Origin: Agrococcus pavilionensis RW1
GTDB taxonomy: Bacteria > Actinomycetota > Actinomycetes > Actinomycetales > Microbacteriaceae
Direction: 5' to 3'
NCBI RefSeq assembly: GCF_000400485.1
Contig: NZ_ASHR01000023.1
Coordinates: 1 to 36,416 of the forward strand
DNA length: 36,416 bases
In this document: positions 24,234-27,060 of the stretch, piece by piece
How the letters are laid out: every line of letters begins with the position of its first letter
How positions within the stretch are numbered: the stretch's first letter is position 1
Program-made: the position numbers and the translations under genes
Notes under the pieces: model-generated
The model's database searches: none
Told to the model about the DNA's origin: nothing
The model's input: only the letters and a program-made list of their open reading frames with translations

Positions 24234-24740
24234 TCAGGGAGCGTCGTCGTGCACGCCGCACGAGCAGCCGACCGCTCCCGTCTCGCGGCTCCGCTCGGTG
24301 TAGGCCTGCAGCACCGCCTGCTCGAAGAGCACCTGGTGCGGCGAGAGGAACTGCTGCACCGCGGCGGGCAGTCGGCCGGCGAAGCGGTGTACGGGGCTGC
24401 CGATGGTGAGCTCGGCCACGTGCACGGCGACGTACACGAGCGAGAGCAGCGAGAAGAGCGTGAGCCCGCGGCCGTCGGGCATGAAGGCGCTCGCCACCGG
24501 GATGAGCACGACGACCGCGAGGAGGCCGTGCAGGAGCGGCGAGCGGCGGAGCCGCGCCCGCGCGGCGTCGCGCCCGTAGTCGCGCGCCGCGAGCACCGCC
24601 GTCGCTCGAGCGATCTCGTGCGCCTCCTCGTGCGAGGTGCGCTCCTCGGCGGCGATCCTGCCGATGCGCGCAGCCCGGCGCGCATAGCGCTCGATCGCGT
24701 CGATCGCCGATCCGTCGCCCTGCGTGCCCTCGTGGTCCAC
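24234..24740 (-). CDS. hypothetical membrane protein with C-terminal Cys pair
   Basis: 168 residues from GTG 24740, set by GGAGGAGG about 7 bases upstream; the longer frame upstream is non-coding. The N-terminal half is helical and charged (AIERYARRAARIGRIAAEER), then two membrane helices (LLHGLLAVVVLIPVASAF and FSLLSLVYVAVHVAELTIG), a short helix, and a tail ending GCSCGVHDD. The C-x-C-G-x-H tail could bind a metal (inference). Not recognised. Divergent from the ureohydrolase. Confidence 0.6.
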   Translation of the reverse strand: MDHEGTQGDGSAIDAIERYARRAARIGRIAAEERTSHEEAHEIARATAVLAARDYGRDAARARLRRSPLLHGLLAVVVLIPVASAFMPDGRGLTLFSLLSLVYVAVHVAELTIGSPVHRFAGRLPAAVQQFLSPHQVLFEQAVLQAYTERSRETGAVGCSCGVHDDAP

Positions 24741-24895: not shown

Positions 24896-25831
24896 ATGAT
24901 CGGTCAGCGGGACGACCCGGGGCTGCCGCGCTACGCGGGCATCGCGACGTTCGCGCTGCTGCCGCAGCTGCACGAGGTCGAGCACGCGGATGTCGCCGTC
25001 GTCGGCATCCCGTTCGACTCCGGCACGAGCTTCCGCCCGGGCGCGCGCTTCGGGCCAGCGCACGTGCGCGAGCACTCGCGCCAGCTGCATCCGTACCACC
25101 AGGTGCACGAGTCGTTCCCGTTCCGCGACCAGCAGGTGGTCGACGGCGGCGACCTCCGGGTGGGCCCCTACGACATCGAGGCCGCGGTCGAGGCGATCCA
25201 TGAGCAGGCACGGGCGCTCGTGCAGGGCGGCACGACGGTCGTGGCGATCGGCGGCGACCACACGATCGCCCTGCCGCTCTTGCGGGCGGCCGCCGAGCGG
25301 CACGGGCCGCTCGCCGTGCTCCACTTCGACGCGCACCTCGACACGTGGGACACGCTGCACGGCGCGAGCATCTGGCACGGCTCCCCGTTCCGTCGCGCGG
25401 CGGAGGAGGGGCTGCTCGACCTCGAACGCTGCCAGCACGTCGGCATCCGCGGCGGCGTCTACGACCCGAGCGAGCTCGACGACGACGCGCGGGTCGGGTT
25501 CGCGATCATCCGGAGCGACGACTTCGCCCGTCACTCGCCCGAGCAGCTCGCCGAGCGCATCCGGGACCGCCTCGGCACCGGGCAGGTGTATGTGTCGATC
25601 GACATCGACGTGCTGGATCCGGCGCACGCGCCCGGCACCGGTACGCCGGAGGTCGCCGGCATCAGCACCCGCGAGCTCTTCGGCGTGCTGCGCGAGCTGC
25701 GCGGGCTCGACATCGTCGGCGGTGACGTCGTCGAGGTGCTGCCCGCCCACGACCACGCGGGCATCACGGGACTCGCCGCCGCGCACACCGTGTGGGAGCT
25801 GCTCGCGCTCATCCCGCCGCCGTCGCGCTGA
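24896..25831 (+). CDS. ureohydrolase, agmatinase / arginase family
   Basis: 311 residues. Mn2+-dependent hydrolase that splits urea from agmatine or a related guanidino compound. Metal ligands are visible: GGDHTIALP (His), HFDAHLDTWD (Asp, His, Asp) and SIDIDVLDPAHAPGTGTPE (two Asp), with N-terminal IPFDSGTSFRPGARFGP as in SpeB. The agmatinase-type GTGTPE loop favours agmatinase or guanidinobutyrase over arginase, but not decisively. ATG 24896 has AGGGAG about 6 bases upstream. Convergent with the small repeat peptide gene. Confidence 0.9.
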   Translation: MIGQRDDPGLPRYAGIATFALLPQLHEVEHADVAVVGIPFDSGTSFRPGARFGPAHVREHSRQLHPYHQVHESFPFRDQQVVDGGDLRVGPYDIEAAVEAIHEQARALVQGGTTVVAIGGDHTIALPLLRAAAERHGPLAVLHFDAHLDTWDTLHGASIWHGSPFRRAAEEGLLDLERCQHVGIRGGVYDPSELDDDARVGFAIIRSDDFARHSPEQLAERIRDRLGTGQVYVSIDIDVLDPAHAPGTGTPEVAGISTRELFGVLRELRGLDIVGGDVVEVLPAHDHAGITGLAAAHTVWELLALIPPPSR

Positions 25832-25853
25832 GCGGGCAGCCGCCGGACGCAGC

Positions 25854-25892
25854 GCGGCCGCGGGCCGACATCGCTGTCAGCACCGCGGCCGC
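25854..25892. terminator. bidirectional hairpin between ureohydrolase and repeat peptide
   Basis: GCGGCCGCGG (25854-25863) pairs perfectly with CCGCGGCCGC (25883-25892). The loop holds a second small stem, GACA (25867-25870) with TGTC (25875-25878). It lies between two convergent genes. Confidence 0.7.
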
Positions 25893-25908
25893 GGGGGTCG
25901 GGGCGAGG

Positions 25909-26025
25909 CTACTTGGAGCTGCCGCCGCCCATGATGATGAAGTCGTCCTCTCCGCCCATGATGATGAAGTCATCCTCGCCCAGCGGCGAGAGGAGGAGGT
26001 GGGTGGGAAGCTGCTTGAAGCCCAT
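25909..26025 (-). CDS. 38-residue peptide with a duplicated EDDFIIMGG unit
   Basis: Short ORF missed by length cut-offs. The N-terminal 15 residues are MGFKQLPTHLLLSPL; residues 16-24 and 25-33 are two exact copies of GEDDFIIMG, and the tail is GGSSK. The two 27-base units differ at two bases only, both synonymous (GGC/GGA and GAT/GAC), which points to selection on the peptide. AAAGGA lies 6-7 bases before the ATG and a TACATT box about 75 bases upstream. There is no signal peptide and no Cys. A RiPP precursor, signalling peptide or small regulator are all possible; no modifying enzyme is adjacent. Family not recognised. Confidence 0.75.
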   Translation of the reverse strand: MGFKQLPTHLLLSPLGEDDFIIMGGEDDFIIMGGGSSK

Positions 26026-26099
26026 TGGCGTTCCTTTGCGAGTGGTGGTGGGTGGTTCCCTCGCCGGTCCGTCGAGGCCCCTGCGCGGGTCTACTGCTG

Positions 26100-26105
26100 A
26101 ATGTA
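26100..26105 (-). promoter_or_regulatory. -10 box TACATT upstream of the repeat peptide
   Basis: Minus-strand TACATT in the 111-base gap after osmC; predicted leader about 65 bases. The stretch 26026-26136 is less GC-rich in places than its surroundings and holds nothing else I can name, apart from the AAAGGA ribosome site near its end. Confidence 0.4.
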
Positions 26106-26136
26106 AGGCATCGCACCCACTTCCGCGATGGCTTTC

Positions 26137-26559
26137 TCAGCCCTCGAGCGTGGCGCTCTCGAGCTGGATCTCGATGCCCGCGAGGGCCTGCGAGACCGGG
26201 CAGCCGGCCTTGGCCTCCTCGGCATGCTTCGCGAACTGCTCCTGGTCGATACCGGGCACCTTCCCGCTCACCGTCAGCACGCTCGTCGTGATGCCCTTGC
26301 CGGGCTCGAACGAGACCTTCGCGCTCGTGCTGAGCGACTCGGGCGCGTGGCCGGCCTCCTCGAGCGCGTGCGAGAGCGCCATCGCGTAGCAGGAGGCGTG
26401 CGCAGCGGCGATGAACTCCTCGGGCGTCGAGGCGCCGCCCTCCTCGGCGCGCGCCTTCCACGTGAGGTCGAAGCTCGAGCCGGTGCCGAGCGTGGTCGTG
26501 CCGGAGCCGCTGCTGAGCGGCCCGTTCCAGCTGGTGCTCGCGTTCGAGGTGATGGCCAT
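26137..26559 (-). CDS. OsmC-family peroxiredoxin
   Basis: 140 residues. Thiol peroxidase reducing organic hydroperoxides. Both redox Cys are present: HASCYAMALSHAL and GCPVSQALAGIEI. FDLTWKARAEEGGASTPEEFIAAAH matches the OsmC subgroup rather than Ohr. Start set by AAGGAGG 5 bases before ATG 26559. Followed on the same strand, after 111 bases, by the 38-residue repeat peptide; co-transcription is possible but not required. Confidence 0.9.
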   Translation of the reverse strand: MAITSNASTSWNGPLSSGSGTTTLGTGSSFDLTWKARAEEGGASTPEEFIAAAHASCYAMALSHALEEAGHAPESLSTSAKVSFEPGKGITTSVLTVSGKVPGIDQEQFAKHAEEAKAGCPVSQALAGIEIQLESATLEG

Positions 26560-26688
26560 GGAGTCCTCCTTGAGTTCGCGTCGCGCCCTCCGTCGGCGGG
26601 CGAGTGGCCCAAGGCTACGCGCGCAGGCTGGAGGTCGGGTGGTCGGATGCGCGGAGGCACTCGGGCGGGCGCGTGCGAGGATGGGCGC

Positions 26689-27060
26689 ATGATTGAGAAG
26701 CCCGAGATCGACGCCCCCGAGGGGCCCGCGCCCGCTGACCTCGAGATCACCGACATCACCGTCGGCGACGGCGAGGAGGCGGTGAACGGCAAGCAGGTGA
26801 GCGTGCACTACGTCGGCGTCACGCACTCGACCGGCGAGGAGTTCGACGCCTCCTACAACCGCGGCGCACCGCTCGAGTTCCCGCTCGGCGTCGGCATGGT
26901 CATCAAGGGCTGGGAGCAGGGCATCCTCGGCATGCGCGTCGGTGGCCGCCGCAAGCTCGTCATCCCGCCCCACCTCGTCTACGGCGAGCGCGGCGCTGGC
27001 GGCGTGATCGGCCCGAACGAGGCGCTCATCTTCGTGTGCGACCTGGTCGCCGTCCGCTGA
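26689..27060 (+). CDS. FKBP-type peptidyl-prolyl cis-trans isomerase
   Basis: 123 residues, cytoplasmic (no signal). FKBP fold: VSVHYVGVTHSTGEEFDASYNRG, LEFPLGVGMVIKGWEQGILGM, GGRRKLVIPPHLVYGERGAG and a closing FVCDLVAV strand. Active-site Tyr, Phe, Asp, Val-Ile, Trp and Tyr positions all look conserved. ATG 26689 has GAGGAT 6 bases upstream in place of a full TAnnnT box. Divergent from osmC. Confidence 0.93.
   Translation: MIEKPEIDAPEGPAPADLEITDITVGDGEEAVNGKQVSVHYVGVTHSTGEEFDASYNRGAPLEFPLGVGMVIKGWEQGILGMRVGGRRKLVIPPHLVYGERGAGGVIGPNEALIFVCDLVAVR

Follow-up and report, generated by a model that had tools for sequence, protein, structure and literature searches.

Gene-encoded peptide signals have been described mainly in Bacillota; the signals of Actinomycetota are typically small molecules made by enzymes (PMC10075063, in excerpt). 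The mature SHPs of the streptococcal SHP/Rgg systems (DIIIIVGG and EIIIIIAL, for example) have an acidic residue in first position and bulky aliphatic residues after it, and the cut that matures them is usually located before Asp or Glu (PMC12445099, in excerpt). Tandem copies of a pheromone occur within propeptides of Bacillota, and duplicated copies were not found among Rgg/ComR propeptides (PMC9765709). In neighbouring Rap propeptides, the mature peptides are distinguished by a single position, a difference that the authors tie to receptor specificity (PMC9765709 and PMC11343458).

Here we describe a micropeptide ORF of Agrococcus pavilionensis RW1, carried on a 36,416-nt stretch of contig NZ_ASHR01000023.1 (the whole of this stretch being referred to as the window), together with its relatives in the same genus of soil bacteria. 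Like the precursors of streptococcal SHP/Rgg systems, the Agrococcus precursors are short and in most forms carry an N-terminal Lys, and their mature-like part, as in the SHPs, starts with Asp or Glu and continues with bulky aliphatic residues and often Gly (PMC12445099). They are unlike SHP/Rgg systems in that they come from a different phylum, contain tandem copies, and are found without a long hydrophobic stretch, an adjacent receptor, or Rgg. With the propeptides of Rap, NprR, PlcR, and AimR systems (Phr and others), they share the presence of several identical or nearly identical short peptides in one precursor, as well as a single variable position that distinguishes signal types (PMC9765709 and PMC11343458). 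Whereas the precursors of these systems are 50-120 residues in length, are exported by the Sec route, and are encoded beside the receptor gene (PMC11343458, in part), those of Agrococcus are 32-38 residues long, have no Sec-like leader, and have no receptor gene next to them. A leader-like part followed by repeated units is also reminiscent of multi-core RiPP precursors, from which the Agrococcus peptides differ in lacking an adjacent enzyme, Cys residues, and Ser or Thr within the units, and in having a core that is more conserved than the leader. Finally, the aureocin A53-like leaderless bacteriocins of Actinomycetota, which include one from an Agrococcus strain, are likewise products of small unannotated peptide genes (PMC11580447, in excerpt). 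When compared by description, however, aureocin A53 is a highly cationic, Trp-rich peptide of 51 residues, whereas the Agrococcus peptide is acidic, repeated, and mostly Trp-free. On the tests made, the micropeptide gene resembles a multi-copy signal precursor most, yet is not a family member.

Anatomy of the micropeptide ORF

Translation of the minus strand from 25909 to 26025 yields MGFKQLPTHLLLSPLGEDDFIIMGGEDDFIIMGGGSSK followed by a stop codon, which confirms that the 38-codon ORF recognized in an earlier examination of the DNA letters (the sequence-only reading) encodes two adjacent and identical 9-residue units (Table 1). Only two bases (GAT/GAC and GGA/GGC) distinguish the two 27-nt units, and inspection of the DNA bears out the assertion that both differences are synonymous. 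The placement of AAAGGA before the ATG likewise proved accurate, as did the location of the ORF between osmC and a ureohydrolase gene, which is established by matches to PF02566 and PF00491; the latter gene, encoding an arginase-family ureohydrolase, is the downstream neighbour in the window and is convergent. Two details require correction, in that the leader contains 16 residues rather than 15 and the tail that follows unit 2 is GSSK rather than GGSSK.

The longest exact tandem unit in 200,000 shuffles of the residues was 6 residues, a length reached in one shuffle, compared with the 9 residues observed. The array received a TRF score of 99, the second highest among the 83 rows for the window. 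An AlphaFold model of the peptide pairs both units in a hairpin, although with low confidence (pLDDT 60.6).

Table 1. Coordinates of the micropeptide ORF, its parts, and nearby features in the window
Feature	Position	Strand	Basis or remark
Micropeptide ORF, 38 codons plus stop	25909..26025	minus	Translation, homologs, selection
N-terminal part, 16 codons, MGFKQLPTHLLLSPLG	25978..26025	minus	
Unit 1, EDDFIIMGG	25951..25977	minus	Translation and TRF
Unit 2, EDDFIIMGG, 2 synonymous differences from unit 1	25924..25950	minus	Sequence, translation, TRF
Shine-Dalgarno-like AAAGGA before ATG	26032..26037	minus	Read from sequence
21-nt upstream box ATGCCTTACATTCAGCAGTAG, putative promoter or operator element	26091..26111	minus	Conserved in 6 F-type QLPTHL genomes
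Strong G+C hairpin immediately past the 3′ end of the ORF, resembling a terminator but with no T run	25853..25893	minus	z -4.1
osmC (PF02566), fixed upstream neighbour; context, outside the peptide gene	26137..26559	minus	
168-aa unannotated protein, two hydrophobic stretches, C-terminal G-C-S-C; possible partner	24234..24740	minus	Recurrence nearby

Distribution and sequence conservation in Agrococcus

A match to osmC was detected in 22 of the 24 Agrococcus genomes, the exceptions being G010 and G016 (65 and 86% complete, respectively). In 17 of these 22 genomes, osmC is followed immediately on its 3′ side by a related ORF of 32-38 codons that is encoded on the same strand and starts 89-166 nt past the osmC stop codon; the 17 carriers are related, and the counts do not represent independent events. 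The proposed peptide therefore has homologs with a conserved frame, and a frameshift within the repeat occurs in 0 of the 17; on both points the outcome is contrary to what the sequence-only reading had named as refuting it. That the micropeptide gene is real and protein-coding is nearly certain. The five osmC-bearing genomes without the micro-ORF (G009, G022, and G023; G003 and G013) fall into two supported groups on a tree of OsmC, but because 13 of the 17 inner branches of this tree are open, gain and loss of the micro-ORF are indistinguishable. In the G023 stretch (L216), a short tandem repeat array of about CACCGCTCGGTGAGGTGCGAGCGCAGCGAGC occupies the position 3′ of osmC at which the micro-ORF is found in carriers.

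Fifteen distinct peptides are represented among the 17 genomes. All 17 contain the motif D-[D/G/P]-[F/D/W]-I-I-M, and hence share the layout of a short precursor with an acidic-then-hydrophobic mature-like part, and 16 of them retain two or three units of the type D-[D/G]-[F/D/W]-I-I-M, an arrangement that is typical of precursors from which several copies of one short peptide are cut. F forms are preceded either by a QLPTHL leader (G000, G015, G017, G014, G021, and G012) or by a K-P-[S/G]-R-R-G leader (G001, with three units, and G007, with two). D forms carry the leader QLPTHLL (G002, G005, G006, G011, G019, and G020) or, in G004, QLPIHLL, and W forms carry the leader MRPNKNDLS (G008, with two units, and G018, with one). 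Subgroups thus vary in the N-terminal part but retain the unit, although QLPTHLL or a similar leader is present in 13 of the 17 carriers. In each of the 16 genomes with at least two units, the residue at the variable position (F, D, or W) is identical among the units, an agreement that can only have arisen if parallel or concerted change took place at least twice. The starts of successive units are separated by 7 to 13 residues, the units thus acting as separate beads, and in all seven D-type peptides the Met of the last unit is also the final residue. The stretch between units in G007 and the D forms (DLVITG, SSIMG, SIITG) looks, judging from its residues, like a decayed third unit. The peptide has no hydrophobic stretch of transmembrane length; Cys is absent from all 17 peptides, as are Ser and Thr from the interior of the units, and in 15 of the 17 carriers the peptide bears a net charge of -3 to -5.

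A search of the 24 genomes for the GAYGAYNNNATHATHATG pattern (D-D-x-I-I-M) returned 31 matches in 15 genomes, all of which reside within the micro-ORF and are always grouped in twos or threes; the reversed control returned none. Across the six core codons of 17 adjacent unit pairs, we counted 10 synonymous and 0 amino-acid differences, although such counts are few, G000, G015, and G017 represent one common history, and all of the genomes are related. Between genomes, pN/pS is 0.29 for the seven D-type representatives and 0.50 for five F-type representatives (single pairs 0 to 0.80). Both sets of values support the view, already expressed on the basis of the window's two units, that the protein sequence is what has been kept. 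Among D-type genomes, diversity within the ORF is 0.15, compared with 0.64 and 0.53 in the upstream flank and 0.50 and 0.66 in the downstream flank, and within the ORF it reaches 0.24 at third codon positions versus 0.11 and 0.10 at the other two. The micropeptide gene is under purifying selection, and the unit is its most constrained part.

As far as we have searched, the gene is restricted to Agrococcus. A DNA pattern describing two copies of the unit was found in 8 of 398 genomes of the family, all eight among the sample's 10 Agrococcus genomes (which include G009 and G023, both without the micro-ORF), and the reversed control gave 0; because this pattern demands ATCATCATG in the first unit, some genuine members are missed. 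In a scan of genome contigs, 80 of 89 stretches were examined, and the eight that derive from Agrococcus are the only ones with a small ORF containing repeated units, the other 72 being accounted for by long genes, by matches that are out of frame, or by short frames in which no unit recurs. Viral contigs contained the two-copy pattern in two stretches, both out of frame. A tblastn search of plasmids and phages with the window peptide, a query too far from the divergent W forms, gave no match at E ≤ 1. Profile A1 produced three strong matches in 396 genomes of the order, all of them Agrococcus, and the next best (E 0.027) was unrelated on inspection. A W-type peptide gave weak matches in the 398 family genomes (best E 0.0053), from which G008 and G018 were absent, leaving that search without a positive control.

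Comparisons with described families were similarly negative. The peptide matched 0 families of NCBIfam and Pfam at E ≤ 10, known precursor families included; profile A1 matched none of the solved structures; and nothing in PHROGs fell below E 0.1 for either the peptide or the 168-aa membrane protein encoded nearby. We found no report of the unit motif strings, or of such small ORFs in Microbacteriaceae, in the literature searched. As far as these searches extend, the tandem-unit micropeptide gene belongs to no described family, in agreement with the sequence-only reading, whose broad proposal of a small peptide serving as precursor, signal, or regulator stands. With no NCBIfam or Pfam model, it also illustrates how readily annotation passes over micropeptide genes this small.

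Transcription signals and downstream genes

The hexamer TACATT, originally proposed to be -10-like, is indeed present at 26100-26105, but its role as a -10 element is only putative; a scan with consensus sequences for sigma-70 promoters and T-run terminators found none. It forms part of the 21-nt box, which is conserved at 6 of the 22 osmC loci and sits 25-28 nt past osmC in the six F/QLPTHL genomes. Most other carriers have a TATAAA-like sequence approximately 45 nt before the ATG. The box, ATGCCYTACATTCAGCAGTAG, is also readable as a mini-ORF encoding MPYIQQ, other promoter-like sequence substituting for it in the remaining genomes. A strict version of the TATAAA-like promoter sequence, TATAAACRGANNTGACRG, has six matches in 6 of the 24 genomes; these brought no shared regulon to light, since all six lie at the micro-ORF locus, and the pattern was derived from those same loci.

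On the other side of the ORF, a strong hairpin is present in all 17 carriers, in which the first 90 nt past the stop fold better than crude two-base-block shuffles (z -2.3 to -5.7). With elements of its own on both sides, the micro-ORF probably constitutes a short, monocistronic transcription unit. The genes located downstream vary among carriers and are often convergent, and no same-strand downstream gene is conserved. A role as a leader peptide or attenuator was accordingly set aside, because variable downstream genes and the convergent next gene in the window make attenuation of a downstream gene unlikely. A riboswitch or other known RNA was also rejected, as the four cmscan matches in 25500-26700 (E up to 1) are all below gathering scores. 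The downstream genes differ between most carriers (L021-L033) and the gene order on the upstream osmC side is constant, as at an insertion hot spot.

Possible roles of the repeated units

We searched the 24 Agrococcus genomes for YcaO (PF02624), SPASM radical SAM (TIGR04085), and lasso leader-protease (Transglut_core3, PF13471) families and found each in 0 genomes (E ≤ 0.001). The Rgg C-terminal family TIGR01716 was likewise present in 0 of 24, while a Lactococcus lactis control was positive. No regulator recurs within 4.5 kb downstream of the micro-ORF; one XRE-like regulator, named by eye, was seen in one genome. Over the 17 carriers, the hydropathy of the leader, taken as its best 7-residue window, ranges from -1.29 to 2.43, with negative values in G001, G007, and G008 and a value of only 0.84 in G018. 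Export through the Sec route, as might be expected for the secreted signal that had been suggested, is unsupported given the polar N-terminal part of these four carriers.

Our preferred reading, which we hold tentatively and at somewhat less than an even chance, is that the gene encodes a precursor of short acidic-hydrophobic peptides that are released as identical copies and act on a partner encoded elsewhere. The 32-38-residue precursor would consist of an N-terminal part, exchangeable between forms, and one to three short units separated by Gly- or Ser-containing linkers, each unit comprising acidic residues and then [F/D/W]-I-I-M. A protease would cut before the acidic residues and after Met to yield identical hexa- to octapeptides, and these would be exported, act intracellularly by binding one receptor encoded elsewhere in the genome, or both. 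The F, D, and W forms would represent clade-specific signal types, and tandem copies would provide a higher dose of peptide. Release, export, and the partner of the unit peptides are all predicted components of this scheme.

Conservation of the unit rather than the leader, the concerted units, their free spacing, and the termination of D forms at Met fit peptides that are each recognized by one partner. Also in favour of released peptides are the occurrence of D-D-x-I-I-M in twos and threes, the synonymous-only differences between units, and the gene's own upstream elements and 3′ hairpin. Against this reading stand the lack of an adjacent receptor, of Rgg in any of the 24 genomes, and of a Sec-like leader, the existence of one single-unit carrier (G018), and the modelled hairpin between units, which despite its low confidence is better suited to an uncut peptide. 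It is by weighing the likeness to SHP and RRNPPA systems against the missing receptor and Sec leader, and against the missing duplicates in Rgg/ComR, that we place released peptides first, an uncut ligand second, and a RiPP third. The more specific proposal of peptide signalling in Actinomycetota by a tandem SHP-like pheromone, with clade types F, D, and W, Sec-independent export, and a receptor encoded elsewhere, we consider unlikely. This compact, conserved tandem-unit gene, with units that change together from clade to clade, offers a small, testable case of co-evolution between a peptide and its putative partner.

Doubtful, but still plausible, is that the micropeptide remains uncut and serves as a multivalent intracellular ligand, in which two or three short linear motifs bind and regulate a dimeric or oligomeric protein. 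Concerted units with flexible spacing are a property of repeated binding motifs, several forms have no Sec-like leader, the enzyme families noted above and Rgg are all absent from the 24 genomes, and the low-confidence model pairs both units. However, the termination of every D-type peptide at the last Met and the existence of a carrier with only one unit are both more in keeping with a peptide that is released or C-terminal, and no partner has been identified.

Multi-core precursors are common among RiPPs, in which the leader is usually more conserved than the core. The arrangement of a leader and a Gly-flanked repeated core would be appropriate for such a precursor if the modifying enzyme were encoded elsewhere, for example one performing aspartimide, N-methylation, or macrolactam chemistry on Asp-rich cores. 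The RiPP-like precursor raised by the sequence-only reading nevertheless finds no support here and is improbable: YcaO, SPASM radical SAM, and lasso protease families are absent from 24 of 24 genomes (the examination covering only these families and stretches near the locus), the peptides offer neither Cys nor Ser or Thr within the units, and the leader varies across subgroups and is less conserved than the core.

Small size and restriction to one genus would be compatible with a bacteriocin-like antimicrobial or with a type I toxin-like membrane peptide that acts on its own cell, for which the recurring 168-aa membrane protein could provide immunity. This is nonetheless very unlikely, because most of the peptides are acidic, in contrast to the cationic aureocin A53 type of the phylum (PMC11580447, in excerpt), because they lack a membrane-spanning stretch, and because the 168-aa protein is encoded near the micro-ORF in a minority of carriers. 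That the ORF is untranslated and conserved as an RNA or DNA element (sRNA, attenuator, or repeat), as the strong 3′ hairpin and conserved upstream boxes might suggest, is extremely unlikely given the third-position differences, pN/pS values below 1 in both subgroups, entirely synonymous unit differences, and four best Rfam matches that fall short of the gathering score.

The 168-aa protein is a possible partner of the micropeptide. It has no match in Pfam, NCBIfam, or plasmids, and its structural model has a pLDDT of 61.5. Six of the 17 carrier stretches encode a member of its family, which is characterized by a C-terminal G-C-x-C, at a distance of up to approximately 2 kb from the micro-ORF and in three arrangements, versus 0 of 4 non-carrier stretches; because three of these six genomes are close relatives and only stretches near the locus were scanned, the protein represents a lead only. 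Besides the copy in the window, the family is found in L022, L023, L027, L033, and L021.
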